From: Arbacia lixula | Taxonomy: Eukaryota > Echinodermata > Echinoidea > Arbacioida > Arbaciidae | Direction: 5' to 3' | DNA: 64,000 nt | NCBI GenBank assembly: GCA_963669155.1 | Contig: OZ022588.1 | Span: 12,438,131 to 12,502,130, forward strand | Shown here: positions 1 to 64,000 of the stretch, one piece after another | Layout of the letters: the number at the start of each line of letters is the position of its first letter | Numbering within the stretch: position 1 is the first letter of the stretch | Translations under genes and position numbers: made by a program | The notes under the pieces: model-generated | Told to the model about the DNA's origin: nothing | The model's input: the letters and a program-made list of their open reading frames with translations, nothing else | The model's database searches: none

Positions 1-25
1 TTTGACCTAATGTACTCTTTGATAG

Positions 26-196
26 GAGTCTCTCCAGATGCAGCTGACCAAATGTGTAGAGGAAGTGGAGCTAATGAGAGTGGAGAGCATTAAAGAGAAG
101 AGCCAGAACCAAGCCAAGCAGGACAAGGTCTGTGCCGAGATGGAGGCAGAGTTGGAAGCTGAGACACAGAAAGTGAATGCAGCGGAAGAGAGACTA
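26..196 (+). CDS. Exon A1 of the coiled-coil gene
   Basis: 57 codons, phase 0 at both ends, acceptor TTTGATAG, donor CTA/GTAAGT. It starts ESLQMQLTKC and ends NAAEERL. It is the only copy with Cys at the LTKC position, where the others have Arg or Tyr. Confidence 0.82.
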
Positions 197-3100: not shown

Positions 3101-6100
3101 AGATGATGATGATCTTGATGGTGATGATGATGATGGAAGGGGTGGTGATGATAATGAGGATGCTGGTGGTGGTGATGGTGATGGTGATGGGACTGGTAGT
3201 TCTGGTGGTGATGGTTGCGGTGATGATGGTAAAGACTATAACAATGGTGATGGTTGTGGTGATGACCATTGTGAAATGATTATAATGATTTAGGTGTTAG
3301 TGATAATTCCTCACTGTCACCGTCTTTCCCTCGTATGACACTTCTTATCAGGAGCAGCAAGCCAAACTGATATGTGAACTAGAGTCTGAGATCCACCACA
3401 AGAGGGCGCCAGACATGGAAGCGGAGTTGAGTCACATGAAGGGAGAACTTGAGAGGAAGAGTGACGAATTGACGCACATGATGGAAAAACTCACAGATGC
3501 CAACATGGAAAGGGTATGAATCAATAACAAAAAAGGATTGTATACCCGCACTACATTTCATGGTTATCCATCCATCAGGCCAATTTATTGTGTTTGCACT
3601 ATAGCTCATGAATTATTTGACAGAATGAAATAAATCTTGTTACAAAAGCAATGCGTGTAAATATGATTTAGGGTCAGATGTGCCAAAGGTTAAGGTAAAA
3701 TGTTTTGATTTTAGTATTTGTTTGGCAACTGAATGGACTATTTTGACCTTATTTACTCTTTGATAGGATTCTCTCCAGATGCAGCTGACCAAACGTGTAG
3801 AGGAAGTGGAGCTAATGAGAGTGGAGAGCATTAAAGAGAAGAGCCAGAACCAAGCCAGGCAGGACAAGGTCTGTGCCGAGATGGAGGCAAAGTTGGAAGC
3901 TGAGACACAGAAAGTGAAGGCAGCAGAAGAGAAAATGGTAAGAACTGAAGAAGGGTGAAAATGGAGCATAACAAGTGGGAGGAGGTGGGCAAAGTTCATT
4001 TTAACGGTGGTAATGATGATGGAAGTGGTGGTGGTGGTGATGATGATGATGGCAGTGGTGGTGGTGATTATGATGGTGGTAGTGGTGGTGATAATGATGG
4101 TGGTAGTGGCGATGATGACGATGGTAGTCCTGGTGATGATGGTAGTGGTGGTGGTGATAATGGTAGTGGGTGTGATGATGATGGCAGTGGTGGTGATGGC
4201 GATGGTAGTGATGTTAATGATGATGATGGTAATGGTAGTGATGACGGCGATGGTAGTGGTGGTAATGATAATGGTGGTAGTGGTGATGATGATGATGATG
4301 ATGGGAGTGCTGGTGATGATGGCGAAGGAAGTGGTGGTGATGATGGTAGTGGTGGTAAGGATGACAATGGTAGTGGTGGTGGCGCTGCTGCTGATGGTAG
4401 TAGTGGTGATGATGATGCTAGTGGTAGTGATAATGATGCTAGTGTTGATGACGATGAAAGTAGTAGTGGCAATGACAATGGTAGTGGTGATGATGAGAAA
4501 GATGATAACAATGGTGATCGTAGTGGTGATGATGATTGTGAAATGATTATAATGATGATTTTGGTGGTAGTGATAATTCCATCCTCACTCTCACTGTCTT
4601 TCCCTCGTCTCTCAACCCTTACCAGGAGCAGCAAGCCAAACTGATATGTGATCTAGAGTCTGAGATCCACCACAAGAGGGCGCCAGACATGGAGGCGGAG
4701 TTAAGTCACATGAAGGGAGACCTTGAGAGAAAGAGTGAGGAATTGATGCAAATGATGGAAAAAGTCACAAGTGCCAACATGGAAAGGGTATGTATCTACA
4801 ACTACAAAGTGTAGTGAAACATGCACTAAATCTCATTGTTATTTTTCCATCAGGCCAGATTATTTTGTCTGTGCAATGGGTTGTTAAATATATGAAATCA
4901 TTCTTCAATCTTGGTACAAGATCTATGCATGAAAAGGTGATTAGATTAATAAAATTTGGGGTCAGATGTAACAAAGGTCAAGGTAAAATGACATGATTGT
5001 AGTATTTATGTTCAGTACTATGTTACGCAAAAGAATTAGATTATGACAGAATTTACTCTTTGATAGGATTCTCTCCAGAAGCAACTGACCAAATATGTAG
5101 AGGAAGTGGAGCTAATGAGAGTGGAGAGCATTAAAGAGAAGAGCCAGAACCAAGCCAGGCAGGACAAGGTCTCTGCCGAGATGGAGGCAGAGTTGGAAGC
5201 TGAGACAGAGAAAGTGAAGGCAGCAGAAGAGAGACTGGTAAGTACTGAAGAAGGGTGAAAATGGAGGATAACAAGTGAGAGGAGGTGGAGGAGATTCATT
5301 ATAATGATTGTGATGATGGTGGTAGTGGTGGTGATGATGATAGTAATGGTGGTGGTGATGATGGCAATGGTAGTGGTGGTGGTGATGATGGCGATGGTAG
5401 TGGTGGTGGTGGTGATAATGCTGGTGGTGGGGATGGTGATGGTAGTGATGGTGATGATGATGATGATGGTAATGGTAGTGATGATGGCGATGGTGGTGGT
5501 GGTGATGATGATGATCATGGTAGTGGTGATGAAGATGATGATGCTTGAGGTGGTGATGATGATGCTAGTGGTGATGATGAAAGTAGTGGTGGTGAGGATG
5601 ATAATTGTAGTTGTGATGATGATGGTAGTGCTGGTGATGCTGATGGTAGTGCTGGTGATGATGGCGATGGTAGTGGTGGTGATGATGATAGTAGTGGTGG
5701 TGGTGATGATGATGGTGATAGTGGTGATGATGATGCTAGACGTAGTGATAATGATGCTAGTGGTGATAATGATGAAAGTAGTAGTGGCGATGACGATGAT
5801 AGTGGTGATGATGAGAAAGATGATAACAATGGCTATCGTAGGGGTGATGATGATGATTGTGAAATAATTATAATGATGATAATGGTAATTCCGTCCTCAC
5901 TCTTACCATCTTTTCCTCATCTCACAATCTTTACCAGGAGCAGCAAGCCAAATTGATATGTGAACTAGAGTCTGAGATCCACCAAAAGAGGGCGCCAGAC
6001 ATGGAGGCGGAGTTGAGTCATATGAAGGGGGAACTTGAGAGAAAGAGTGACGAATTGACGCAAATGTTGGAAATACTCACCGATGCCAACATGGAAAGGG

Positions 6101-7832
6101 TATGCATCAACAAATACAGACTGTAATGAAATCTGCACTACATTTTTTTGTTTTCGGGATGGCTAGTTAAATATATGACAGAATTAAATCATTCTTGGTA
6201 GAAGTGCTATGCATGGAAAGATTATTAGATTAATTAGATTTGGGGTCAGTTGTAACCAAGGCCAAGGTGAAATGACATGATAGTAAGCAAATAATCAATG
6301 TTGGTGAAGGTGATAGGACGAACTATCACTTCTGAGGCGATCTAGATGTAGCCATGTTTTTGAAGCGCATCTGAGGAAAGATAGCGTATACATGCAGATC
6401 GCAGAGGAAGTGATAGTTCGTCTCATTGCCTTAAACCAAAAGTTGATTATTTGCTTTATATTCCACATCTGAAACCATCTATCTATACCACAAATGACAA
6501 TTTGACATACAAAAGTAATGTTTACTTCTCTACCTATGCCCGAGCCACTGCTATGGGGAACACGCGTATAGGACGCGCGTTAGAACGCGTTAGTAGGAGC
6601 TTATGTTAGTCATTTGATAGTCCGAGTGTAACACACTTTTATTTCGGGCGTACTCAAAATATTGGTCACGTGTTAGGACTGTGAGGAGTGAAGAGATCAG
6701 CGAAACCAAAAAGTATTATCCCCTCGAGTGTAACGAACTTTTCTTCTCAGGTGATCAGATGGGCAAAACTACGCTTCATCATACATGTATGATCAACTCT
6801 TGACCAATCCTAACGCAACATTCTTAGTATGTGGAATATAATAGTATTTATGTGATAACCCAAAAGAAGATTATAACAGAATTTACTCTTTGATAGGATT
6901 CTCTACAGAAGCAACTGACCAAATATGTAGAGGAAGTGGAGCTAATGAAAGTGGAGAGCATTAAAGAGAAGAGCCAGAACCAAGCCAGGCAGGAGAAGGT
7001 CTGTGCCGAGATGGAGGCAGAGTTGGAAGCTGAGGCAGAGAAAGTGAAGGCAGCAGAAGAGAGACTGGTAAGTACTGAAGGAGGGGAATAGAAAGATGAA
7101 AATGGAGGATAACAATTGGGAGGAGTTTGAGGAGGTCCATTATAATGATGGTGATGATTGTGGTAGTAGTGGTGATGATGGTAGTGGTTGTGGTGATGAT
7201 GATGGTAGTACTGGTGATGATGCTAGTGCTTGTAAGGATGATAATGGTAGTGGTGATGATGATGGCGATGGGAGTGGTGGCTATGATGATGATGGTAGTG
7301 GTGGTGGTGATGATGATGGTGGTAGTGGTGGTAAGGATGGCAGTGTTAGTGGTGGTGGTGATGATGATGATGGTGGTAGTGGTGATGATGATGAAAGTGG
7401 TGGTGGCGAGGATGACGATGGTAGTGGTGATGATGAGAAAGATAGTAACAATGGTGATCATTGTGGTAATGATGATGATCGTAAAATTATTATAATGATG
7501 GTTTTGGTGGTAGTGATAATTCCATCCTCACTCTTACCATCTTTCTCTCATCTCACAATCCTTACCAGGAGCAGCAAGCCAAACTGATATGTGATCTAGA
7601 GTCTGAGATCCACCACAAGAGGGCGCCCGACATGGAGGCGGAGTTGGGTCACATGAAGGAGGAACTCGAGAGGAAGAGTGAGGAATTGATGCAAATGACA
7701 GAAAAACTCACAGATGCCAACATGGAAAGGGTATGCATCAACAACAACTATGGACCGTAGTGAACCCTGCACTAAAGGATGGTGGTGATGATGATGATGA
7801 TGATGATGATGATGAGGAGGATGATGATGATG

Positions 7833-7883
<51 letters not shown>

Positions 7884-8766
7884 GTGGTGGTGATTTTGAT
7901 AGTGGTCATGATGATGATAGTTGTGATGATAGTTGGATTGGAATGAGGATGACACTGATGGTAATAGCAATCAGATGATAGTGGTGATGATAGTGCTGAT
8001 GGGTTGATGGTAATGATGTTGATGATGATTGTGAAAGGAGTTGTATCGCTGGGAAGAAGAGTTTGATTTTACGGTTAAGTCATGAATGGTTCAACATTCG
8101 TTTGGATTTCGTTCTTTTCTTTGATCAACACTTTCAGATGTACAGGAAGATTCAGTTACTAGCTCTGATATTGTAAGTGCTTTTGCAATATTTTCTTCCA
8201 TTACATATTTTATAGAATTAACCATTTTTTTTCTGTGTTTTGTCCTGTTTGTACCTTGATAGGAGTCTCTTCAGAAAAAGCTAACCAAACGAGTGGAGGA
8301 AGTCAAGCGAGTGAGACTCAATTGCATTAAAGAGACGAGCCAGAACCAAGTCAGGATGGACAAGGTCTGTGCCGAGATGGAGGCAGAGTTGGAAGCTGAG
8401 ACACAGAAGGTGAAGGCAGCAGAAGAGAGACTGGTAAGTACTGGAGGAGAGCAATACGAGGGTGAGAGTGGAGGATAACAAGTGGGAGGAGGTGGAGGAA
8501 GTTCATGATGGTGGTAGTAGTGGTAGCAGTGGTGATGATGATGGTGGAAGTGGTGATCATTATGATCGAAGTGGTGGTAAGGATGAAGGGAGTGGTGATG
8601 ATGAAGATGATGATGATTGTGGTAGTGATGATGATGGCAGTGATGGTGATGATGGTGGTTGTGGAAGTGATGATGATGGTAGTGGTGGTGATGATGATGG
8701 TGGTTGTGGAAGTGATGATGATGGTAGTGTTGAAGATGCAGCTGATAATGGTTCTGGTAGTGGTGG

Positions 8767-8818
<52 letters not shown>

Positions 8819-8910
8819 AGTGTTGGTGGTGATGATGATGATGATAGTGATTGTGTTGTTAATGATGATGATGATGGTAGTGTTGGTGATGATGATGATA
8901 TTCATCCTGG

Positions 8911-8951
<41 letters not shown>

Positions 8952-11900
8952 GTAGTGGTGATGATAATGATGATGCTTGAGGTGGTGATAATGATGCTAG
9001 TGGTGATGATGATGAAAGTAGTGGTGGCGATGACGATGAGAGTGGTGAGGATGAGAAAGATAGTAACAATGTTAATCGTAGAGATGATTGTGAAATGATT
9101 GTAATACTGATTTTAGTGGTAGTGATAATTCTGTCCTCACTATCACCGTCTTTCCCTCGTCTCACAATCCTTACCAGGAGCAGCAAGCCAAACTGATATG
9201 TGAACTAGAGTCCGGGAACCACCACAAGAGGGCGCCAGACGTGGAGGCGGAGTTGAGTCACATGAAGAGAGAACTCAAGAGGAAGAGTGAAGAATTGACA
9301 CAAGCGATGGAAAAACTCACAGATGCCAACATGCAAATGGTATTTATCAATAACAAGGAAGGACAATAGAGAAATCTGCACACATTTCATGGTTATCTTT
9401 CCATCAGGCCAAATTATTTTGTTTACACAATGTCTCATGAATTATTTGACAGAATGAAATAAATCTTGGTACAAGATGGTGATGATGATGATGATGATGA
9501 TGATGATGGTGGTGGAAGAGACAATTCTCTCCATACTCTCCATGTTTGCCCCTCGTCTCACAATCCTCCATTGTCTCTCTCTCTACCAGGAGCAGCAAGC
9601 CAAACACATATGTGAACTGGAGTCTGGGATCCACCACACGAGGGCGCCTGACATGAACATTGAACATGATCTACAAGTCGCCAAACTAGAAGAAAGGTGA
9701 GCCTATGGAACAATTTTTTCCAGAAGTGCATGACTCACTTGTGATTATAAGCATCTGTTATGGTATTAGGTATTGTGGTTCATGCAATGTTTTAGAGAAT
9801 TGTATGTATGTCTGCAAATGGATGCACTCAGAGGTATCCCTACGCAGACAAACGTACACATTTACATCACCGTTTTTGGGGAGTGACTCCCCAAAATGTT
9901 GATAAATGTCTTAATTGTGACTTCTGAATGTCAGAATACTTCTCAAAATTGGACACATGAATTGCCTTTTGCCTGACATTTAATGTGGTCTTTTGGTGAT
10001 GACGGATTCCAGCCTTGGATGAAAGCCGGCACTCCAGGGCCCATTTGCATAAAACTTAGCATTGATGGTAACTTTGCTGGCAACTTCGATTGAGTTGGAA
10101 ATCTTGAATTTGATTGGCTGTCAAGCAATGTTACCATGGTAGTTACCACTGAAGTTTCATGCAGTGGTGCCCTGCACTGAAATTTGAATATTCACACCAA
10201 TATTTCAGCATGTGAGTATTGAAATAAAACTCGACCTGTATAATTTTCACATTAAACTACATTTTGATACCATTAAAGAATTTTTGTAGAGGAGGAGGGG
10301 GGAGGGAAGAGATTGGCATGTCTGTAACTGGCAACCCAAGCTCTTACTTTGTAATGAGCAGATTTGTTGCAGTGTGTTGACTTTGCCTTTCACTAGGATC
10401 AGAGATCTGGAGAGCTCAGCCAAACACCTAGAGGAGAGGAATAGAGTGTACCGCAACGAGTTGAGGAGAGAGCATGAACGAGGAGCAGATGCTTCAGGTA
10501 TTACTCCTCGCTATGCCAGGCAAACGCGCCCATGGGAAGATGTGCGCGTTTATCTGGAGCTGGCACAAATTATTTTGATTCCCAACCGCTTAAGTTGAAG
10601 TCTGATCTTTGGAGATTTAAATTCTTGTCGTTAAAGGGCATATACTGTACTGGGAGGGCAAAAAACCTTCAAAAGATCATTGTTAGTAATCTTCTTTCCA
10701 ATGGTCCTAAATTAGTGTATTGTCTATTTTAGAAGCTTGCTGAAAGTAATTTGCCCTCAAATGATCTACACTTGGAGTAAGGAGTGATTAAGTCACAAAT
10801 CCTCCAAGTGTTCGGGCTGAACATTTTGAGGATTTAATTCCTAATCATTAATTACTCCAAGTGTGGATCATTTAAGGGTAAATAACTTCAAGCAAGCTTC
10901 TAAAAAAGAAAATACATGAATTTAAGACTATTGGCAAGAAGATTGCTGACAATTACCTTTTGAAGGCTTTTTTGCCTTCCCAATACAGTATATGCCCTTA
11001 AACAAGCATCTGAATACAGAATTTGTCATTTGTAAAATTTAATTTGGATTGTGGAAATTCACTCCCACTATGTTCATGGTTATATTTCCCTGCATTGTGA
11101 ACCCCGGTCCAGCTAGGGGGGTCAAAATGGCACTGTAGTAAACAAAGAAATGTGGCTCTATTGTGCCCTTATAAGGCATTTGAAGTGTATTCATAACCTG
11201 GCATGTTTTGTCCGTGCAGCAGATTAAGTGGGAGTTGTACTGCTTATTATCTGAGTGGAGAAAGGTTAGCCCGTGTATATGCGGGCCCAGTAAAGAACGA
11301 GCAAAGAAAGGAACGAATTGTAGCATCTCATTTAGCGCAAGAACAGGTCACCAGTCATGCATAAAGTTGTGAAACAGGGACCTGGGCCCCGTTGCATAAA
11401 ACTTACCATTAATGGTAACTCTGTCATCAATGGTAACTACCATGGTAACATTGCTCAACAGCCAATGAAATTCAAGATTGCCATAGAAGTTGCCATTAAT
11501 AGCAAAGTTACCATTAATGGTAAGTTTCATGCAACAGGGCCCTGGTTTGTTTGTTTAGTGATGAATTAGCTTCAAATAGATGGTAGAAATAGTACCATGG
11601 ATTAGCTGATGATATGATTGAACTGTATATTTCTGCATTGACATGTCTGAGATTTCTCCTTTGTTGCCTGCACAGTCCTGTCCTGTGCAAACTACCCAGA
11701 GGCCGGTGTCTGCGGCTCAGGATCCGTCTACGATGTCGCCCTCTATAGTTTGCGGGCAGAGAATCAGGCGATGACCACGGAGCTCAAACAGAAGCAGAAG
11801 AAGTATGAGACTACAAAAACCCAGCGGGACGAGCAGGTGTAAGTGACAACATTTTCCTTGTCACGTACGATTAAATTTCTTCCGAGCCATAGGTGCATTT

Positions 11901-27000: not shown

Positions 27001-30000
27001 GGTAGATTCAAGAAAGATTTACTTCCTCACTACAGATTCTACATGTATTTGCCAGTAATCATTTGCAGTATAGAACTGCAAATGGTATACATAGAATACA
27101 CTTTTCATAATATCAACAATTTTTTTGTAGGTTTACAAATCATTCACACAATACATTACTAATAGGAACCCAAAACCTTGTTTGAGGTTTGTCCGAGTAG
27201 CAACAACTAACAGATTCATGGTGCATTCCACTAACTGAAACTGAATCACTAGATACAGGTGAATGTCATAACGCATTAGTACGCAGTTAGGGAGAAAGTT
27301 TTGAATACATCACGGAAACAGATTATTGACATGCACTCTCCCATATGTTGTGTGCTGTATTATTCAATAAATTGCTTTTTGTCTGGTGTCTAATGACATA
27401 TAAAATACACAGATGAAATTATGCATATCGTTTTGAGGAAATGGAAGTTTTAAAAAAAAAGATAGAACACAACATATGGGGCAGCATATAATCAAAACAT
27501 TGAAAAATTATAACTTTCGTATCCTTTGACGGATTTTCAGCAAACCTTCACCAATACATGTATGTTTCTTCATGTTTCTGATTTTTTTAAAACCAACTTC
27601 AGGGCCCCATTGAATAAAACCTACTATTAATGGTCACTCTGCCCTCAATGGTAACTACCATGGTAACATCGCTGGACAGCCAATCAAATTCAAGGTTTCC
27701 ATGGGAATTACCATCAATAGCAAAGTTATCATCAATGGTAAGTTTTATGCAACAGGGCCCAGGGTGGACTTTCCCTCTAATAATATCAGCTTCCTATCGC
27801 ACTGTTACTTACGACTGGGATCCCTTTCTCTTCATCAGCGGCGCTATACTCCTTGCCACACAGACTGAGCTTACAGCTGATAGAGGCATGGAGACCAAAC
27901 GTCTCTTTCGTCCAGAGAACCTCCACGCTGAATCGCCTGATGTTGCCATACATTCTATGATCTAGGCTGACGTGCTGTTGGTTGACCTCGTGAAAGATGA
28001 CCGTCTGGTCTACCGGGCACCTAGGGTTTGGACGGACAAACAAAATACAGTCAGCTATGTCAGAAAAGACCACCGTCTCTGAAGACCGATGAACTTGAAT
28101 CCCTTCAGGTAATTGCTTGACCGAGATGTGCGTAAGCTACGCATGACTTGACACACAACTGGCGACCTCTTCTTGTGCTAAATTGTTCCTGATTAAACAG
28201 AATAGGAGTAAATGTCCCACAATCCTATTCAAAATTTGACAAATTATACATTGTGTATTCAGACACTTGTCTTTACAAGAATTTTAATCTTCACCGATCA
28301 GATTTTAACTTTATCTGATGGGAATCAAAATGATTTGGGACCCAAGAACAGGTCACCAATGGTGCATCAAGTTGTATGTAACTTGCGTACGTCTTAGTGA
28401 AACACCCCCAGGGCAGCCCATTTAGGCCACTTGCATGTATATATAAAACCAGTTGTCCTTAACGACAGCTTTTCTTCCTGCTTGTAAGTTGTCCTCATAG
28501 ATAGGTCTACCTATGTTATTATGTAATGAACAATACCTACAAAAATTATTCAAGAATCACAACAAAGCCATACTTTCTGAATAAGTTATCTGTCATCTTG
28601 TCAATCTACTCCATTTTATCATTACTCAGCTCTCTATATTCATTTACAATTTATTAAAATAAATTAACCACATAGTTATGTTGTTATCTTTTATATTACC
28701 TTGTTGAGTAACATCATAAGTGGAAGTTATTCATTGTGTTTTGCAGCTGTTCTCTTTGTTATATTTCGTTATGTAATGTAAAACAACCTATTTCTAACCA
28801 AAGGATATATTTTTTAAATCTCAAGCCTTTGGCTTTTTAAAGTAATATCCTGATACCTTAATGTTGTACATTTTGTTTAAATTTGACATTTTATGGAATA
28901 AATATCAAATTGAATTCAGCAACACCGAGGAAGCAGCTGGTGATGTTTTGAAGCTAAGTGAAAAGACCTTTTTTTTTTTTTTAATTTTTTAAACATGAAA
29001 TTTAGCATTCAGAATTGTCTGGAAATTACAGAATACGCATTGAGCATCGTAATGTGTGCACATGATGACATCAACAATTCATATTGACAGTAAGCTACAA
29101 GAAATGAACATCAATGTGCAGTGCAGCATGGCTGAGAAAGAGCAAAAAGACAGAGGAACTCTTGAACGGGAGTCCATGAATGTGTGGAAAGAAAAAAACA
29201 ATGAACATGAGAAGGAACATAATTAATGCACACTAGGGGTGGTATTTTAAAAGAAACTGAATTTGCAAACTGCCTTAGCAAAGTCAGTTGCTATTCTGGA
29301 AACTGACTCCAGTCAAAAACTGTGCTGCCCTACTGTGACAAAAGGAAGCAAGTGACAAATCACTCAAATCTGGGCTATTGTTATTCTTAGATTGTACCCA
29401 GCATACATACATACGGCCAAAATCTGGACAAGAAATATTCAACTTGCTGCGAGATATTCAATCTAACATGATGTGGTGTTGCACTGATGCCAATGCAAGT
29501 GACAGACCCATTTTGCTCATTTACAAGAAAAGTCTCTTTTGTTAGTTGCTTCATTTTGTCAGAGTAGGGCAGTGTGCTTATACACCAATCCTAGTAGAGG
29601 ATCAGAGGGAAAAAGTCTAAACTTAATTTCATTTTTCAGAAAACCACTTATGAAGGAAGATCTGTCAGATTCTTACGCAAAGTCGATGAACCTGTGGACG
29701 ATGACCTCTCCAACCTGCACCCAGCACTGGTCCAGCACCACGTCGTACCTCAGCTGACCACCACTGACCCCTGCCTGCAGGTACAGCCGCATGCCATCGG
29801 TCAGCGGCACCGGGAAATCGCCGCCCTCAAGCTTCTCGCTGTAGAGAGGCGTGCGGTACATGTCCAGGTGTAGGGTCACATGACTGTCGGCCATGTCGGT
29901 GTTGTCCGACGGGCCGCCCCGCGGGAACTCGCACTCCACGGACCAGGTGTAGAAGGGCTCCATGGAATCTTCGTCGTCATCATCCGATGGGACCACTCCC

Positions 30001-33000
30001 GATCCCATCTCACCTGCCCCGCTGCCTTCCGCCGGGGACCGGTTAAAAAAGAGCACCTGGGCATGGGGGATTTTTCAATTTCTTTTCAATCAAATCTGAT
30101 TTTTCGTCAAAGTAAAAACATCAAAATACAAAATGAATACAAAGGAGAAAAATTATAGAAGATGGAGATAGGATGATAGCAGAAATGGCCATGTCTGTCT
30201 TTGAATCACATAATAATTCATTACTACTCTGTGTTAGTAACAACATGATAGCTATCATAAGCATGCAGGCAGTGGATGGGTGACATCAGAGAATTTTGGG
30301 GTGTTACATGGATGCACCAGAAAGAAGAACATGAAATGGTGATAAAGTGGCCTTCACTCTGCAATGAAGAGACAAAGGCAAGATAGATAGAAAACATACA
30401 ACAGATAAATCATGACTGTAGGACAAGGTAGACTGGTGTTTAGCGTATCAATGCAAAGAGATCAGCTCACCCTGTTACGGTAGATAATCTTGTTGGGCCT
30501 CTGCTCCGATGTAGTCCCACAAGCATCAAACTGCGTCACCAGCATGTAGCCTAACGTCATCTCCTCCACCGCAGTACAGTCCCGATCATAGAGAGTGACG
30601 TCCTCTGCGCTTAGGTTGTAATGTTCAGCAACGTCTGTCGGCACCTGGAAATAACGTTGGCATCACAACGGATTATTCAGAGCTTCGACCCGCTTATGTC
30701 CTGGGCCCTGTTGCATAAAGCTTACCATTGATGGTAACTTTGCTACCAAGGGCAACCTCTATGGAAACCTTGCATTTGTTTGGCTACCAAGCAACGTTAC
30801 CATGGCAGTTACCATTTATGGCAGAGTTTTATGCAATGGGGCCCTCTTCTACGTTTCTAGCATGTCAAGCATTGCCTTTTCCTTTCCCAAGCACTGGGCC
30901 CCTGAAACTGTTTGTTAGGTGGCCATCATGGCCACTTCAGCATGAGTTCCAGGTAGGCAAATGGATTTTCCGCTGGCCCAGATTGTAACCAATAATATTG
31001 GCCAGCTGGGCCATAAAATTGAGCGTTTCCAGGTATCTCAATACCTGACAGCTCACACACACAAACACACTCACCAGTGCACGTATGCCTTGCTTGTGGC
31101 ACTCGACGACCACGGGTTGGGAGCCATGGTAACCAGGGATGGGTCCGTTGACGGAGTCGGCTGGAGAGCCATCCAGGGACAAGATGTAGGGCTGACGAGA
31201 GATGTCTGGACAGAGAGCATCAGAAGAGAAAAGTTTAACCCCAATCAGCCATTGAGCACCATAGAGCAGCATTACATCTGGCAATGGACTGGTGCCAGAT
31301 AGATTCATCTTGCTACTGCATGTATATATGAAAAAAACACTTATTCAATGATGACAATTCAAATGAAATGCAAAAAACTGAACATTTACCATCCCCTGTA
31401 ACAAGTGGGTTAAATATCTGGGATTCAAACTGTGTTAGATTTAATCCCACTTTTTTCATACAAGTGGGTTAAATTAGGGAATTTGAACACCCTTTTTGTG
31501 AGACAAATGAGTTCAATTTGCCAATTTAATCAGAGTACCATTTAAATCTTCTTTCTCTGTGAGCTTCGGGGGATATCTCAACACACAGAGGACCGACGGT
31601 CTACTTACTGGCCTTGCCGACGGTGACGTTGAATCGGTTCGCGAGCACGGCTTCGGTGAAGGACACCACGCCCTCGTACTCGTCCTGCGCCCAGCTGAGC
31701 AGCTGGTCGTTGTTGGTTGGAATGCTCTCCTGGGTGACCGACACCCGCTGCAGCCCCATGCCGTCCGTGTTGACCTCGTGAGAACTCTGCCCAAGGAAGG
31801 GGAAGGGAGCAAGAGAAACATAGGAGACAATGAGAGTGGGTTTCTTTGCTGGGGATGCTTCTCCGATCTGATATCTTGCCATGAAAACGCTAAACCCTGC
31901 GGCACATTGCTGTAAAACCGGTAATTTTCGTGAGAGTAAATTTTTCCGGCAGAGCACACCTACAAGATATTCGTGGGAGTTTAGTTTCGAGCTCAAGAAA
32001 TGCTTGTCGCTCAAAAATAATCCACCCTCTGCATTAAAATCATCAACAAAACCCCTAACACAGCATTATCATGAACATTTAATGCCAATGGCTGTGCAAC
32101 GCGTCACAGCATGATTTGAATGCCAGTACTAGTATATTAACTCCAGAATCCCTGATAGATTTACGCTTCTAGACAGCCTGCTAAAGATAGCAAAATTTTG
32201 CTTGTTCTGTATCGCGCAAAAAGCCCAAAAAATTAATGTTGCATGAAATTTGCCAGTTTGTCCAGGTGAAGTCCAATGGGGGGGGGGGGGGATTGGGGGA
32301 GGGGGGAATTCATATCTTCATATTCTAAATGGGGCTCTATCTCTACTATCGCCATCCATGATATTGTGTTGAGCATTGTAAAGAATGAACATCCATCATG
32401 GTGCGCTTCTCAACTACAGGGAAACCTGCTTTAGCAAACACTTGTTTACAAAGACCACGTGCCTTTAGAGACCATGGTTTGGAGTTCCCTGGAAAAAACA
32501 TTTCTCATTAAAGACAAGTTTTCTCCTCTAAGTCCTTGAGTTAGGAAACGCCTCAGAGAGCCCGAGATTGGTATTCCAGAATGTCCTCCTAGGAGGCTCT
32601 TAATGCAAATTAGGGAGATTTTGACCACGTCCATGTCTCTGGAGTAGTGTCTACCTACAAGTTTTCCTTTATTGGTGATAGAATGAAAAACCAGCCTCAC
32701 CACAACTGTCAGATCTCCAATCTCCACATCGCTGACGACATTCCAGATCACAGGTGTGTCTGCCTGGAGCACCAAGACCACGCTGCGACTGGCCGCCGCC
32801 CGGCGACCGGCCCCCCTAAGCCTGACGACCACGCCCTCCCGCCGCCCCCCTCCGGGCGGGTTGGGGCGTGGCAGGAGCAGGAAGACCACGTGGACCTCCT
32901 GCTGGGCGCGGCCCGGGTGGAAGATACAGGAGCCCACCTGCTGGGGTTCGATGAGGCTAGCGCTGGTGTCGGCCGGCCGGTTGGACCGCGATATGACACA

Positions 33001-40915: not shown

Positions 40916-41326
40916 CATAAACATAAATCTGCAACTCTCTCTTCCCTGTTTGGCACCCTTTTTAATACTAACCCCTGCTTTTTCCCCATTTTGCAAGAAG
41001 CATCTCTATTCCTTTCTCGCTGCCTCTCTCATAAAAAATGGAAGGCTCTTAAGGGCGCCTGTCTACTAGTTGCACTTTTCAATCATATTTTTGCTCCGTA
41101 ATTTGATATCAGAAAAACATCAAATGTACATCCCGTTTAATCAGTCATGAAAAATTGCAAGCGATATGTAGGCAAATCTAATATGTGTATGTGAAGCCTA
41201 CATGTAGTATTGGTCACATAAATCAAGTTACTGTTAGGACTGTCTGTGGACTACACATACATACATGTACATGCACGGGAGCTCCTACAGGGAGAGTATG
41301 TATACATAACAACAGACTTTCAGTGC

Positions 41327-42421
41327 GTTCAGTCTAGGCCTGAGTCGAATCGATTATTAAGCCGGTGTTCGATCGAAGAAGTCGAACTCCGATTTCGTTT
41401 TGATGAATTCGATGCATCGACGAAATTACCAAATTGACTAGAAAGCACAAAATCTTTTGTTTGATAGTCCTGTTATACACAATTTATCTTAATATTTTTT
41501 AATTAGTTTAATTTGCTTACTTGGTTCCTACTCTCTTTTGTGAGTTTTGAAGGTAGCACATCAAGAGAACGAACTGGTCGCTCGATGATCAAGCAGCTAC
41601 TACATACTTGGCTTCTTTTCGTTCACTACTATATACCGCGCAATGCCACAACGAACACTTGTCTGTAGACTGTGTACAACGGATAGCATCGTGTGTTGTG
41701 AAAACCCGGAAACAGCACAGTGGCGATTGTGCGTAAGTTCGCTCATTAAGGCTCATTTGCATACACGCTGCCAACAGACTGGTAGAGCGCACAGAACTAG
41801 AATTTCGTTGGTAGAGCGTCTCCGTACAGCGATTCGGAGACCGCTGATTGGTGCATCGCGTAGATCATGTCATGACCACGTGGTCGCTAATCGATAGCGA
41901 TAACGATATCTGGTCACGTTGTCCGAAACCCGGAAGCCAATTGACTTTGTGCACGTTACACGTTACAACTTACACGATGCCATATTGACGCTAATTCTTA
42001 AGATTTTGACGGAAAAGCAAGAAGTTATTGAAATTCGCTTACATGTGCGATATCGGTGAGAAAATAGATTCTCCGAAAATACCTTTCATAACTCATATAA
42101 AATAAAGGAAAGTGAAATTCTAGGTCGATTTTGATACGAGGTGATAGAGAATTGCACACTTATTTTGGTGGAATACTGTGTGGGGAAATGGAAGGATTGC
42201 ACTGCGCATGCTTACTATATTTTCATTCATAAATTGGCTCTTGGCAGTGGCTGAATGACGTCATGTAATACGCAAAATGTACACGACCGCTGGCGTTCGC
42301 ACTCCGCTATCCGTTGTACACAATTTGTTAATGTGCCGTCGATGCATCGATGTTCGATCGGCGCAAAGCCATCGAACACCGGTTTCTGAAAAAATCGATA
42401 TGACTCAGGCTTAGTTCAGTC
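41327..42421. mobile_element. Non-autonomous hAT-like DNA transposon with 8-bp target duplication
   Basis: The element runs 41335-42413 (1079 bp). It begins TAGGCCTGAGTC and ends GACTCAGGCTTA, a 12-bp terminal inverted repeat with one mismatch. Inverted similarity extends about 80 bp inward (CCGGTGTTCGATCG, GATGCATCGA). Both sides carry GTTCAGTC (41327-41334 and 42414-42421), an 8-bp direct duplication as expected for the hAT superfamily. Internal frames are short and show no transposase motif, so it needs a transposase in trans. Confidence 0.8.
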
Positions 42422-42947
42422 CCATAGGCAAGAAACAAAGTTGTTCTTGATATGGGGCTGGCAGTGTTTGGTGCTAAAGGGGTTGTGGTGTATCCCTTCC
42501 TTAAATTTTAACAAATTTGTAAAAGATTGCATGAACCAGAAGAACAACATATATGTCCAATTTGTCAAATATCAACCTTGGTAGTGATAAATAATAAAAA
42601 CAGTAAGAAAACAAATTGTTTTGTCATATACCGCACAGAGTGTCCACTCACAATTTTGTTTTGACTGAAACTCAATAAAAAAAGTAATTGTAAAGTAAAC
42701 AGGGTGTCCACACCAAAAACAATCTTGACTAAAATTCAATCAAAAAATATTTGTAAAGCAAACAGTGTGTTGTCTACGCACAAAAAATCTGTACCAAAAC
42801 TCATTAATGATACCTTGTACATGTTGTTTTTTGCTGTCTGCCTGTCTTCGGTGAGCGAGCACTAGTTTGAGTTGATTGGGTCTTTTGCGGGAGTGGTCAC
42901 GCTACACTCTGCCCAGTAATAGAATGTAAAGTTAGTGATGTCCACAT

Positions 42948-48198: not shown

Positions 48199-48571
48199 GA
48201 AAAGGGAGTATATTGTACTGGGAAGGCAAAAAGCCATCAAAAACGTGATCATGAGCAATCTTCTTACCAATGGTCTTACATTCATGTATTGTCCATTTTA
48301 GAAACTTGCTGAAAGTTATTTGACCTCAAATGATCCACATTTGGAGTAATTAGTAATTCAATCACAAATCCACAAACTGTTCGGGCCGAACATTTTGAGG
48401 ATTTCAGTAGCAATCATTAATTACTCCAAATATGGATCATTTGAGGGCAAATAACTTTCAGCAAGTTTCTTAAATGGACAATACATGAATGTAAGACCAT
48501 TGGTAAGAAGATTGCTCACGATCACCCTTTTGAAGGCTTTTTGCCTTCCCAGTACAACATACTCCCTTTAA
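48199..48571. mobile_element. TTAA-type palindromic element, GGGCATATACTGTA family
   Basis: Uninterrupted copy with GGGAGTATATTGTACTGGG at the left and its complement at the right; TTAA preserved at the right only. Confidence 0.75.
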
Positions 48572-48664
48572 AATGGCTAGTCTGCTGCAGCCAGACCCAT
48601 TTATCTAATTTTATTTTATTGTACATGTAGTTTGACTTGAAAATGTCCAACAGCCTAGAGGCCA

Positions 48665-55420: not shown

Positions 55421-55697
55421 CTGCCTGTCTGCCTCCCACAAACATAATCCACCACCTCGATCATTTTGTTATTTTTCCCTCTCGGGCTGAGCTTGAAACA
55501 CTCAAAAAAGAATCATGCCCTCTTTTTTTTTTTACTAGTATAATGACAGATTTTCCGACCACATCCCATAATGCTTTTTTACCAGGAAAACCAAATTAGC
55601 ACATCCTTTCCAACATAAGTGTGTAGAGAACAGGCAAGGTTCAGGGCGATAAAATGTAGCCCCCGTATTACTCGCAATGGAAAGAAGAGCCTTTGCT

Positions 55698-56070
55698 TTA
55701 AAGGGCATATACTGTACTGGGAAGACAAAAAAGCCTTCAAAAGGTGATCATGAGCAATCTTCTTGCCCATGGTCTTAAATTCATGTATTGTCCATTTTAG
55801 AAACTTGCTGAAAGTTATTTGCCCTCAAATGATCCACATTTTCAGTTATTAGTGATTAAATTACAAATCCTCAAAATGTTCGGGCCGAACAATTTCACGA
55901 TTTGTGATTTAATCTCTAATTTCTCAACATGTGGATCATTTGAGGGCAAATAACTCTCACAAAGTTTCTAAAATGGACAATACATGAATTTAAGACGATT
56001 GGCCAGAAGATTGCTCATAATCACCTTTTGAAGGCTTTTTTGTCTTCCCAGTACAGTAGATGCCCTTTAA
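55698..56070. mobile_element. TTAA-flanked palindromic element, GGGCATATACTGTA family
   Basis: 373 bp, perfect TTAA on both sides, ends AGGGCATATACTGTACTGGG and its complement; best intact copy of the family. Confidence 0.82.
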
Positions 56071-56105
56071 ACACAAGAACCCTTCAATCATGATTGGTTC
56101 TCATA

Positions 56106-58874: not shown

Positions 58875-59266
58875 TTAAAGAGAGAGAGAAAAAAATACAA
58901 TACAGGTATGAACTTGTATGTCAAAAAGCACCATTTCAGGAAAAGTGGAAAGCTATTCTTATTTGCGTTTGAAACGTGACAACCATAGTCTACATTCATT
59001 ATCGTATTGTCCCTGTCAGCGTGTGATGTGAGCATTGCTCCCGTTGAACGCACTCTCTGTGGAGCAAACCGGATCGGACCAAAGCGTACAGCGGTCTCCG
59101 ATCTCTAGGCTATAGGTATCTGATGACCTGCCTCAAAGCTCAAAATTTACTGATTGCTATTATTTTGCCATAAGTCAGTTTCCAGGTCTATTATTGGGGG
59201 GGGGGGGGGGGGTTCTGATACGGTATCTTCTTTTGTTGATCTGCAAAAGGGACACCCTGTCTTTAG
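58875..59266. mobile_element. TTAA-type element, CATAGTCTACATTCAT family
   Basis: TTAA at the left and AAAAGGGACACCCTGTCTTTA at the right; internal GGAAAAG-GGAAAGCTATT and CATAGTCTACATTCAT; a G-run at 59193-59212. Confidence 0.6.
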
Positions 59267-59600: not shown

Positions 59601-60030
59601 TGAAAGACAGGGTGTCGCTTTTGCAGGTCAAAGAATGAAATTGTGTAAATACCACAGAAAATGGGAAAAAATACTGGAAGAGAAGTTCTTCTCGCAGATC
59701 AGAACTAGAAAATGACTTTCAGCAAAATGATACCGATCGCTAGATTTTAAGGAAGTTGTGGACAGGTCATCCAAAACCTACCAGTTCCTGTCGTCACGAG
59801 ACCAGAGACTGCTCTCCACACGGCAGACGGCAGTATGCATTGGTGCGAGCGATGCCTGCTGACCGACAGATCGCGCAATATGACTACGAAACGGGGTGTT
59901 TCAAACATCAACGAGGAGAGTTTTTCCTCAAAAGGTTCATGAAGCTTTGACTGTGACATGTCATACATACAGCTGATCCACTCTGAGTTTCATGACTTTT
60001 CTATAAGGGCTACCGGTACTCTGTCTTTAA
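59601..60030. mobile_element. TTAA-type element, CATAGTCTACATTCAT family relative
   Basis: AAAGACAGGGTGTCGCTTTTG at the left and GGGCTACCGGTACTCTGTC-TTTAA at the right, opposite orientation to 58875-59266. Confidence 0.55.
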
Positions 60031-60339
60031 ATCATACCAGGGAAAGAAATACCGGGAGACTCGGTGCGATTTCCCTCCTAAAATGCTTAAAAGAGCCCTG
60101 GAAAATGTTAAAAGACCCCCAAAAATTCCCATAGACACAATGTAAGATTGTAGCCGAACAGCCAATGTGTTTAAAAAGTAGCCCCCGAAAATGTTGAATT
60201 ATCTTTTCCCTGAATCATACAGTAGGGTTTTTTTTGCCCATGAGGTTGGGGGTCAGATCAGATGGAAATAACCATAACATGTGTACCTGCAGTGAACACA
60301 GCCTCCGTTTGCAGCACATACGTGTACTGTACAGTCTGG

Positions 60340-60512
60340 CCGCAGCGTGCGCTATAATGAGCTCAGCGGTGCGCATTTATACATATTCTCGATCCAGACT
60401 TCCGGGACAAAATCCATGGCGAGATGTCGCGATATATTGCGAGGTTTTGACAGGGCAATTTTTAAAGTGCCTTGCATCAAGGCTAATTCAGTGGACATGG
60501 CGAAATGACGCG
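60340..60512 (+). promoter_or_regulatory. Possible promoter and 5' UTR
   Basis: CG-dinucleotide-richer patch (GCCGCAGCGTGCGC, GCGGTGCGCAT, GGCGAGATGTCGCG) with TATAATG near 60352 just upstream of the proposed first exon. Suggestive only. Confidence 0.3.
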
Positions 60513-63500
60513 GTAAGTGAATCTACGATTTTTCCTCTAAATTTTGGTATATAGATCGTCATATTTCCGGATATTTTTGTTTATCAAAATTGAGGCAAGA
60601 TATTATGCCATTTTCGGTGATTATTTCCTCGTATTTTGAAGTAGTTTTACATTTTGCTAGCTCCTGACTGGTATAAAAACCGTTTTGTATTGAAATTTCT
60701 TACGTGAAAAGATGAAATGTCGCTTTGTGATGCCATCGGGGATTTTGATCGAATCACCAGTTCTTTTGTCTTAAAAATCAGTTTGAAAATGACTTAAATA
60801 TCCTATTTGACCGGAAGTAGCCTTCGTTAGCTTTGTAGAATTGGTGAAACCGCGCGAAAATTGTGAACGAAATAACTAGTGTCTAGTCCCGTACGTGTAT
60901 TTCCGTGTTATGTTTTTGGTATAGTAATGGGGTTATGTGTGTGGTCGACATGTCTTTTAAAAACATTTAGACTGCTTTGATTACCTTCGACTCGTCCTTT
61001 TAAAAATTGTAGACTGCTTTGATTACGTTAAATCTAACTTACTTGAGGTATTTGTACTGTACTTGATCCCCGAGCCGCTGAGCTGATTTAACTTTTGAAA
61101 TTGAGAGTGGAGAGAGTGAGAGACTAGATCATGTCATAGGCATATAGCCTATAGGTAACACTACTTTTTCTGTTCACATGATTTACAGGCTGCCACAGTG
61201 CTCATCCTTAAAAATTACTGGATTTGGCGATTCTATTTTACGTGGTGTCCAGGAGCATCTTCCCTCTCTTTCACACTTTCTAGAACTTAGTTTGTATTTG
61301 GATTGGGATATCAATTTTTTTCCTGGAGCATCTATCTCATCCTTACGTAATCACATTTCAAACTTTGAAGATAATTCTCATTCACATATCATATTAATAC
61401 ACATAGGAACAAATAATCTTCAGAATAGCATCTGGGAGATAGATAATAAATCATTTGCGGAGCTGTATTACACTGCGCGAGAGAAGTTTCCCACAGCTGA
61501 TATTATTTTCAGTGTTATTTTACCCCGTTGGGATTCAGAAGATTTATACACGAAGTCGAGATACTATAATAATAATTTACACAAATTGTGCTCAAGTTTT
61601 TTCAATTGCTATGTGGTAGATGCCACTTCCCCCTTTTTGTGCAGTGATAGGTTTTTTCATTTTGATGGTGTTCATTTAACTCTTGAAGGGAAGTCAGCAC
61701 TTGCTTCTGAATTCACAAATTTGATATCTCAATTTGTTTACTACCAAAACTTCAAACCCAAGCAAACAATTAGAATACCTAAAGAATTGAAAATTTTGAT
61801 TAATATTTCCCGAAGTTCCCGTTCAAAATCAGCTGTTCAACAACCAATCCTCTCAGAAAAGGAAAAAGCCCTCATAAAATACAGAAAAAGGGAACGATAT
61901 GGAAAACCTTACATTAAACCGAAGGTGGAACAACCAAAGAGAAAAAAAAAGAAAGTTGTAAAAAAACGAGATCCAGTGTTGCTCCCTCCTCCCCCTAAAT
62001 ATCACGAGCCATCATTTCAGAACCTTAGCCTCATTCCATATACAACATTCCCAACACAATTATCATGCCCCCACACATACTCCTGTTCCCCACTCCCCAA
62101 GTCACCTACTCCATATATAACTTCACGAAAGAAGGCCAGAGAAAGGAAGAGGAGGCGGCAGAGGATCAAGAAGCACCGGAACAGGAAGAAGGTGTGTAGG
62201 TCTACTAACTTTGGTGGCTGTGCATGATTATATTTTGTGGTCTTGGGGCAGGGTGTTTTAAATGATAGGGTAGTAAAATACATGACCATAATTTTTTTTT
62301 TACATTTCTCTAACTTCTTTCATGGATGCAGTTTGGACTGGCCTTAATGTTTGACTGAGAAATTGGTAAAGTCCTTTTTCGTCATTTTAGTTGTGATTAA
62401 AGTGATCTTGCTCTGCGAAAAAAACACACATTTAATTTGACTTAATTAAGAAATGTTCTGTATGTAATATTGACATTTTTGTAAGGAACATTTTTTTCTT
62501 TCAGTTTTACTAATGTTTTGCCTAAATGTTTTTTTTTCACCTTAACCACAGATCAAATATGAGGATGTCCACTTGTGTGATTCTCCACAAGTAAGATCCT
62601 CTCCTCTTCATGTCACTCATCCAGTCGCACCTGTAGCTCCTGATCCTCATCCACCACCAGTTCCACTTTCTCCTCTTCATGTCACTCGTCCAGTCGCACC
62701 TGTAGCTCCTGATCCTCATCCACCAGCAGTTCCACTTTCTCCTCTTCATGTCACTCGTCCAGTCGCACCTGTAGCTCCTGATCCTCATCCACCAGCAGTT
62801 CCACTTTCTCCTCTTCATGTCACTCGTCCAGTCGCACCTGTAGCTCCTGATCCTCATCCACCAGCAGTTCCACTTTCTCCTCTTCATGTCACTCGTCCAG
62901 TCGCACCTGTAGCTCCTGATCCTCATCCACCAGCAGTTCCACTTTCTCCTCTTCATGTCACTCGTCCAGTCGCACCTGTAGCTCCTGATCCTCATCCACC
63001 AGCAGTTCCACTTTCTCCTCTTCATGTCACTCGTCCAGTCGCACCTGTAGCTCCTGATCCTCATCCACCAGCAGTTCCACTTTCTCCTCTTCATGTCACT
63101 CGTCCAGTCGCACCTGTAGCTCCTGATCCTCATCCACCACCAGTTCCACCATCAATCGCACCTCTAGCTCCAGATCCCCATCCACCACCAGTTCCACCTT
63201 CAATCGCACCTCTAGCTCCTGATCCTCATCCGCCACCAGTTCCACCTTCAATCGCACCTCTAGCTCCTGATCCTCATCCACCACCAGTTCCACCTTCAAT
63301 CGCACCTCTAGCTCCTGATCCCCATCTGCCACCAGTTCCACCTTCAATCGCACCTCGTGCAATATTGTTCAACAAAAACACAAATGTTTCGTTGGGGTGA
63401 AAGAAAAGCTTACCAAACATAAGCAGCCCTGTGGGAATTTTTCATGCGGACCATGTCGCCTTTGTCAAAAAACATCTCACAAATACACCCATTTTAATTT

Positions 63501-64000
63501 AATTAAGTCTGAAATGCTAAAAGATTTAATCAAATCAAAGTTTACAGACATTTCAGATTTTTCTTGTATATGTAACAGTTGCAGGCAAAAATATTCAAAA
63601 AAGTTGAAGAATGAGTCCTATACACCAGAAAAAAGTAGAAGAAAAATGAAGGATTCCCCATGCTTTTTGTCAGTATATTTAGATTGTGATTTAGCTGGTG
63701 CAGTTCAGACACAAGGCGATGTCTCTCAGTTTAATGAAATATTTTCATTGCAACTTGAAAACATACCTGAAACTATATATCTTTGTAAGTTTCACAGGGC
63801 ACGCTTTTTGAATTTTTCTGTGAAGAAGAACAACATTTGTGCTGCCTGTGATTGTCAGCTAAGTGGTAAGAAATATATAATCACTTGTTTATCCACAGAA
63901 GGCATTGCCAAATTAAGCCAGATTAATGAAAATCTGTCTATAAAAGAACATAACTTTATTTGTTCTTCATGTTATTGTTTTGCAAATCGTAAAGGCCAAC
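60505..64000 (+). CDS. SGNH/GDSL hydrolase fused to basic and Cys-rich regions (5' part)
   Basis: Proposed join: 60505-60512, 61189-62191, 62552-62590, then a Cys-rich exon running off the window. Start ATG at 60505 reads MTR across a consensus donor (GCG/GTAAGT) and acceptor TGATTTACAG. Residues of the 61189 exon show SGNH blocks: GFGDS (nucleophile Ser codon 61232-61234), PGAS, HIGTNN, and FDGVHLT (catalytic Asp-x-x-His). SGNH enzymes are esterases or lipases with about 200 residues. A Lys/Arg-rich stretch (QPKRKKKKVVKKRD and RERKRRRQRIKKHRNRKK) follows, resembling nuclear-localisation or nucleic-acid-binding sequence. Then come several CxxC pairs. Enzyme plus basic tail plus Cys-rich module does not match a host enzyme I know. 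SGNH domains do occur in some retro- and DNA transposons, so this may be a mobile element or a gene derived from one. Confidence 0.55.
61189..62191 (+). CDS. SGNH hydrolase exon
   Basis: Long exon, phase 2 in, phase 0 out (AAG/GTGTGT). The frame also contains an ATG at 61178, but that lies inside the acceptor tract. If the intron is not real, that ATG would be the start and the protein 349 residues to the stop at 62225-62227. Confidence 0.7.
62552..62590 (+). CDS. Short exon linking SGNH and Cys-rich regions
   Basis: Acceptor AACCACAG, 13 codons IKYEDVHLCDSPQ, consensus donor CAA/GTAAGA, phase 0. Alternatively translation continues without splicing into the Pro-rich repeats up to the stop at 63398-63400. 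Confidence 0.4.
62602..63355 (+). repeat. Pro-rich minisatellite: 69-bp units then 48-bp units
   Basis: Eight 69-bp units (starts 62602, 62671, 62740, 62809, 62878, 62947, 63016, 63085) are followed by about four to five 48-bp units. Both are multiples of three and open in the forward frame (LHVTRPVAPVAPDPHPP; then PPSIAPLAPDPHPPPV). The 48-bp unit is a shortened 69-bp unit. It could encode a Pro-rich linker or be intronic. Confidence 0.85.
63427..64000 (+). CDS. Cys-rich region, open to the window end
   Basis: Frame open from 63319 to the last base. Pattern: PCGNFSCGPCRLCQKTSHKYTH, then CICNSCRQKY, CAACDC, FICSSCYC, i.e. repeated CxxC pairs with nearby His, suggesting zinc binding. An AG at 63425-63426 fits phase 0 from the 62590 donor, but the preceding tract is poor in pyrimidines; an AG at 63335 or a frameshift are alternatives. 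The product is unrecognised. Confidence 0.5.

Follow-up and report, generated by a model that had tools for sequence, protein, structure and literature searches.

An autonomous DNA transposon of Arbacia lixula carrying an SGNH hydrolase gene, probably expressed as a -1 frameshift fusion with its transposase

SGNH hydrolases occur in several unrelated mobile elements, where their role is unsettled. According to the available part of one account of CR1/L2 retrotransposons, their ORF1 proteins with an SGNH domain also carry arginine-rich motifs, and residues H191 and S228 of the ZfL2-1 esterase are conserved only among the transposon esterases aligned in that article (PMC3905857). AcademX DNA transposons are described, in the available part of their account, as making target-site duplications of 3-4 bp (PMC10045372). 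The element considered here lies at the end of a window of 64,000 nt (C13:12438131-12502130 of the 607-Mb genome of Arbacia lixula; plain coordinates are window positions). Near-identical copies, common ends, 4-bp duplications and long open reading frames (ORFs) identify it as an autonomous DNA transposon bounded by terminal inverted repeats. Judged from its frames and motifs, it is probably a cut-and-paste transposon of Academ type in which an SGNH hydrolase and the transposase would be fused by a programmed -1 frameshift. The element in the window is called family 1, and relatives elsewhere in the same genome are called families 2-7. A DNA transposon lineage with a retained SGNH domain lets the role of these hydrolases be asked without reverse transcription interfering. 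The SGNH protein seems to be tied to the transposase as one polyprotein, which would, if true, be unusual for a cut-and-paste element, and a -1 frameshift at a GGG-stop would be an uncommon recoding signal.

Copies were identified by a DNA search of the genome, in which 40 of 63 candidates were scored, all counts being lower bounds. This yielded at least nine long matches and at least 29 loci with one common internal gap (query 505-1032; rows counted manually). Flanks were compared for eight of the nine long copies; matches stop at the same points, give or take a few bases, and identity to the window copy over the long aligned stretches, counting differences in the arrays, is 99.2-100%. Perfect 4-bp target-site duplications, read by eye, are present at the ends of seven of the eight (TGTA, GAGG, TACA, TGTC, TAGT, TGTT and TTAA), while in the eighth copy the last bases differ and its left TCTA reappears 5 nt past the end of the match. 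By copy alignment and end comparison the element totals 11,173 bp, beginning at window position 60332 and ending at C13:12509634, such that the window holds its 5' third (60332-64000) and the remainder lies past the window end. The terminal inverted repeats match at 15 of 16 bases between CAGTCTGGCCGCAGCG and the complement of the 3' end (one mismatch). No further copies of the element sequence were found inside the 64-kb window.

A reading made earlier from the sequence only had proposed either a large mobile element or a host gene derived from one, with a count of genomic copies as a check. The former is borne out by the copy numbers above and by the inverted ends common to eight near-identical copies, of which seven have a 4-bp duplication; a host gene derived from the element is not supported for the window copy, which is itself one of these eight. 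A lone host gene was ruled out by the multicopy nature of the element, and a part of a Helitron or retrotransposon was ruled out by the ends and duplications and by the domain matches of the long ORF. Because the copies are near-identical, the element would have been active recently, and with open frames among these copies it may still be so. The gapped derivatives are without the start of the SGNH exon and exceed the full elements among the matches listed; in the one gapped locus that was read (L030) most of the transposase core is also gone and the nuclease sequence is retained. These loci likely form a non-autonomous family.

Extension past position 64000, which had been proposed as a search for a transposase, identified a transposase-like ORF of 1,818 aa that is open in seven of nine copies and matches DUF6589 (2.7e-12) and the tesmin/TSO1 CXC domain (3.7e-06), both over Pfam's cut-off. 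These were its only matches above the cut-off, with no reverse transcriptase and no Helitron Rep/helicase among them; the first 227 aa gave no informative match in Pfam, PDB or NCBIfam, and an Rfam scan gave nothing informative. The repeated CxxC motifs of this Cys-rich N-terminus, already remarked upon in the sequence-only reading, exceed expectation (5 in 227 aa vs 1.5 expected by shuffling, P 0.011), and a chance ORF was ruled out by the 1,818 aa open in those seven copies. A 33-nt "intron" at 63866-63898 was dismissed as too short. In the region after DUF6589, a domain that we take to be Academ-like, the acidic residues FD, HEExD, DxD and GCD occur in that order and are invariant in the six families aligned, a pattern resembling that of XPG/FEN nucleases. 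A long aspartate run was also observed after the CXC domain (L010, about 730-790), and the five other families read have acidic tails likewise. The 4-bp duplications and inverted repeats described above agree with those of AcademX, and the element most likely belongs to the Academ superfamily, AcademX type, an assignment drawn from duplication length and motifs only.

The 5' part of the element is occupied by a gene that appears to be spliced (Table 1). CpG observed/expected is ~1.4-1.5 at 60.3-61.1 kb (600-nt windows) vs 0.18-0.65 from 61 kb on (250-nt windows), and a generic weight matrix ranks the donors at 60513 and 62192 highest among the region's GTs, the former being the highest-scoring GT of 60.5-64 kb and within the top 0.3% of the window. 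Both findings agree with the CG-rich upstream sequence and the spliced start with a three-codon exon 1 that had been read from the sequence. Exon 2 encodes an SGNH domain matching PF13472 with an E of 5.3e-10, over Pfam's cut-off, and its four catalytic blocks are intact, as had been claimed (GDSI, FPGA, GTNN and DGVH); the S, G, N and D/H blocks are kept in 3/3 aligned families and are readable also in families 2 and 6. About a dozen residues stand before the domain, with no coiled coil ahead of the esterase. The strongly basic tail reported after the enzyme domain was confirmed in the same exon and frame, with a net charge of up to +13 per 30 residues and 137 open codons, the chance of which is ~1e-4 at local composition. 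The exon 2 protein shows no amino-acid differences in the seven other copies compared. As a point against coding, three-base periodicity has no prominence in the SGNH, tail or Cys-rich part.

A three-family SGNH profile matched the ZfL2-1 ORF1p esterase (4C1B) at 3.8e-17, the top match among solved structures, vs 1.2e-9 for PAF acetylhydrolase (PAF-AH); by sequence comparison, the domain is closest to retrotransposon-encoded esterases (CR1/L2 ORF1p), not to PAF acetylhydrolases. Equivalents of H191 and S228 are kept in family 1, 37 apart, and the pair is invariant in the three families aligned; PAF-AH, with which they were compared, has W and L at these places. ZfL2-1 numbering was derived by hand using a chain offset of 131, anchored on H282. 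Because CR1/L2 ORF1 proteins have both an SGNH domain and a basic stretch, their combination is a known mobile-element pairing, to judge from the available part of PMC3905857, and not the odd architecture for which it had been taken. The novelty is the carrier element, not the pairing.

Exon 3 has six lengths (846-1488 nt) in eight copies and is a multiple of 3 in all of them; spliced exons 1-2-3 would encode an SGNH-basic-Pro-rich protein of 619-833 aa across these copies. The Cys-rich ORF is out of frame with the SGNH exons and overlaps them in the -1 frame, the upstream stop being at 63398-63400, and joining it to SGNH therefore needs a frameshift or splicing. The earlier proposal of an SGNH hydrolase joined to a Cys-rich module holds in that both are in the same element, but needs correcting in that they lie in different frames. 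In six of the seven families read, the last codons of the frame on the SGNH side are TTG or CTG, then GGG, then a stop, and the transposase frame crosses this place in -1; the position of the stop is constant, its codon being TGA, TGA, TAA, TGA, TAG and TAG in families 1 to 6, and the overlaps measure 79, 52, 19, 49, 13 and 13 nt, respectively. No -1-frame ATG was found ahead of the first cysteine in the six families examined. Two features of -1 frameshifting, overlapping -1 ORFs and a downstream ORF without its own AUG, are present in these six (family 7, with no overlap, is not in this set). In the pooled ORF pieces GGG accounts for 36/250 Gly codons and GTA/GTG for 159/365 Val codons, giving by hand a chance of ~1e-6 for GGG plus GTA/GTG at the site in five separate families, an inflated figure, since the families have a common ancestry. 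An older deletion copy, a gapped derivative, has the same frame relation. A pseudogene frame break was ruled out by the same stop and site in 8/8 copies and by the same frame relation in this older derivative and in five other families.

Relatives were searched for in the same genome using a 660-aa transposase piece as query. Besides the nine copies, ten loci with 28-40% identity and open frames of 1,763-1,891 aa were identified, together with more loci that are shorter or broken, and upstream DNA was read at six of the ten (families 2-7, with 5 and 6 mutually close). The SGNH exon occurs in five of the seven families and its basic tail in one more, while the most distant shows neither. An SGNH exon, basic tail, intron and repeat exon are present in families 2, 3, 5 and 6, the exon repeats being unrelated between families by eye, except 5 vs 6. 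Family 4 has the basic tail at the edge of the sequence fetched and short repeated exons in place of the repeat exon; in this family (L034, about 1177-2120) a short exon-like stretch recurs at intervals of about 370 nt, as though whole exons had been multiplied rather than repeats within a single exon. The SGNH exon begins in phase 2 in all five families with a visible start. A possible exon 1 of 8 nt in the same phase, one of four candidates, lies in family 2 at 172 nt from its presumed 5' end vs 173 nt in family 1; this 5' end resembles that of family 1, and the 3' end was not found in 3 kb. No convincing exon 1 or 5' end was found in the sequence fetched for families 3, 5 and 6. The transposases of the SGNH-bearing families are only 37-40% identical, yet the catalytic residues are kept in the five families whose domain was read. 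The ratio of nonsynonymous to synonymous divergence (dN/dS) for families 5 vs 6 is 0.022/0.079 = 0.28; for families 1 vs 3 it approaches saturation, and no dS was obtained for two other pairs.

Taken on balance, the frames and their conservation lean towards a cut-and-paste lineage with a gag-pol-like plan reminiscent of retroviruses, in which a spliced SGNH protein takes the gag position and the transposase would be a -1 extension reached through slippage of GGG in the ribosomal P site at any stop. One mRNA from the CpG-rich 5' end, spliced 1-2-3, would give the SGNH-basic-Pro-rich protein. At the end of exon 3, where GGG occupies the P site and the stop the A site, some ribosomes would move back one base (GGG to GGG) and continue into the transposase; the resulting fusion would have ~2,400 aa. 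Its transposase part, which has a DUF6589 core, a putative XPG/FEN-like nuclease and a CXC domain, would carry out the cut-and-paste movement of the element. By analogy with ZfL2-1, the SGNH part may act like a CR1/L2 ORF1 esterase, binding lipids or membranes and slowly hydrolysing esters, and the basic tail may bind nucleic acid or serve nuclear entry.

Several observations weigh against a frameshift fusion in an Academ-type element. Of the nine copies, one has a shorter frame (1,589 aa) and one has two stops. At the proposed site, no canonical X XXY YYZ heptamer was seen by eye, and RNA folding of the 97 nt downstream gave nothing unusual in the five families folded (z of -0.62, 1.44, -0.56, 0.88 and 1.50). 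The sites of the different families are not independent, because the families share descent. Single sequences, each of six members and a profile gave no convincing Pfam/PDB match to an XPG-like nuclease, and for this reason AcademX is the best filing but an unproven one. No relatives beyond this genome were found in scans of viral, bacterial and phage genomes, other eukaryotic genomes lying outside the search. Family 7 (28% identity; L037, L041; ORF of 1,891 aa) has no SGNH, GGG-stop site or overlap in 3.2 kb upstream; it is possibly an outgroup predating the SGNH gene. Finally, exon 1 ends in phase 2, and the acceptors at 61189 and 63336 both fit this phase, the latter ranking among the best 5.5% of AGs in the window.

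This last fit is what alternative splicing would predict, with the three-codon exon 1 starting two proteins by joining either to exon 2 (SGNH) or to acceptor 63336 (transposase). However, family 1 is the only one of six families in which an acceptor of fair score matches the exon 1 phase: the best acceptors in the needed interval are no better than 37-59% of window AGs in families 2, 3 and 4, and the best one for families 5 and 6 (-0.6, top 12%) requires phase 1 instead of 2. Since alternative splicing also leaves unexplained the same-codon upstream stop in the -1 register of six families, it is considered unlikely. A different use of splicing would make GGG-GTRA a 5' splice site, the stops being a by-product of the GTRA consensus and the transposase coming from another, unmapped transcript. 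GGG followed by GTGAAA, GTAAGG or GTAGGG is donor-like, and this phase accounts for TGA, TAA and TAG alike, but the family 1 donor at the GGG-stop is ordinary (11% of window GTs are as good), the transposase ORF is unbroken across it, and a transposase start codon ahead of the first cysteine is missing in 6/6 families, all of which makes this proposal improbable.

Other doubts concern the SGNH gene itself. It could be a host gene picked up by the transposon family with no role in transposition, which is one of two readings for fish Texim/Helitrons; SGNH genes beside Helitrons are described in the available part of PMC4021074, and SGNH domains recur in unrelated elements in what is available of PMC5408684 and PMC9210276. 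The SGNH exon or tail is in the same place in 6/7 families, the catalytic residues are kept in the five read, and dN/dS between families 5 and 6 is 0.28, such that a passenger gene is a slim prospect. That the gene belongs as ORF1 to a CR1/L2-type retrotransposon lying beside a transposon of unrelated origin accords with the ZfL2-1 ORF1p esterase as best solved-structure match, but is refuted by the common ends, since SGNH lies within them in 8/8 copies, seemingly spliced, and the long ORF has no reverse transcriptase match; practically no weight is given to it.

Table 1. Coordinates of the transposon features in the window
Feature	Position	Strand	Basis or remark
Left target-site duplication TGTA	60328..60331	.	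Identical 4 bases after right end
5' terminal inverted repeat CAGTCTGGCCGCAGCG	60332..60347	+	Common start of 8/8 copies
Transposon portion in window	60332..64000	+	Copy alignments, common ends
CpG-rich promoter-like region	60332..61000	+	CpG observed/expected ~1.4-1.5, 600-nt windows
Candidate exon 1, ATGACGCG, phase 2	60505..60512	+	Top-scoring donor of region; similar geometry in family 2 candidate
Exon 2: SGNH hydrolase domain (~61189-61780) and lysine/arginine-rich tail	61189..62191	+	PF13472
Exon 3: Pro-rich tandem repeats (69 bp x 8, 48 bp x 5), terminal TTG GGG TGA	62552..63400	+	
Transposase ORF start, Cys-rich N-terminus, -1 frame	63319..64000	+	Full ORF C13:12501449-12506905, 1,818 aa
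Proposed -1 frameshift site TTG GGG TGA	63392..63400	+	YTG GGG stop at corresponding place, 6/7 families

Elsewhere in the window, a 37-nt inverted repeat (59228-59264 and 59603-59639, 86% complementary, 338 nt apart) lies just outside the transposon and is perhaps a small foldback element. Positions 1-9700 hold a tandem family with units of ~1.2-1.5 kb, rich in TGA/GTG-type triplets, whose copies are ~70-87% alike. A weak Zona_pellucida match on the minus strand at 29676-30074 (E 0.0013, below Pfam's cut-off) is perhaps part of a host gene, and a second CpG-rich stretch at 41301-42550 (observed/expected up to 1.64, 600-nt windows) is perhaps a promoter. A nearly palindromic sequence of ~375 bp at 48201-48572, 55697-56071 and 10622-11004 matches its own copies both ways.

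In the open literature (titles and abstract openings among the matches listed), no SGNH domain was found in DNA transposons with inverted repeats, Academ elements included; such families may sit in Repbase. With AcademX the element shares inverted repeats, duplications within the 3-4 bp range and a single long transposase whose core is followed by a putative nuclease, the nuclease at the level of motifs; it differs by the seemingly spliced SGNH-basic-Pro-rich gene in front and by the -1 overlap, neither of which appears in the available part of the AcademX account (PMC10045372). The Ngaro SGNH ORF (PMC9210276) and the GDSL ORF3 of rotifer retroelements (PMC5408684) are alike in having an SGNH hydrolase as a mobile-element accessory but, as far as the available parts of these sources describe them, belong to retroelements as a separate ORF with no transposase link. 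Texim and Helitrons in fish are alike in that an intron-bearing SGNH gene travels with a DNA transposon, but that transposon is of a different class, the long ORF of the present element having no Helitron Rep/helicase match, and the available part of the account places Texim in or beside Helitrons (PMC4021074), vs the same place in six related families here. The ORF1 type IV of CR1/L2, in which a coiled coil or leucine zipper precedes the esterase and ORF2 encodes a reverse transcriptase, does not fit the element, whose esterase is N-terminal with no coiled coil before it and which is a DNA transposon without a reverse transcriptase match. With the ORF1 SGNH esterases of CR1/L2/RTEX/Penelope (ZfL2-1, PDB 4C1B) it nevertheless shares the catalytic blocks, the H191/S228 pair, a basic stretch in the same protein and a gag-like place ahead of the enzyme ORF.

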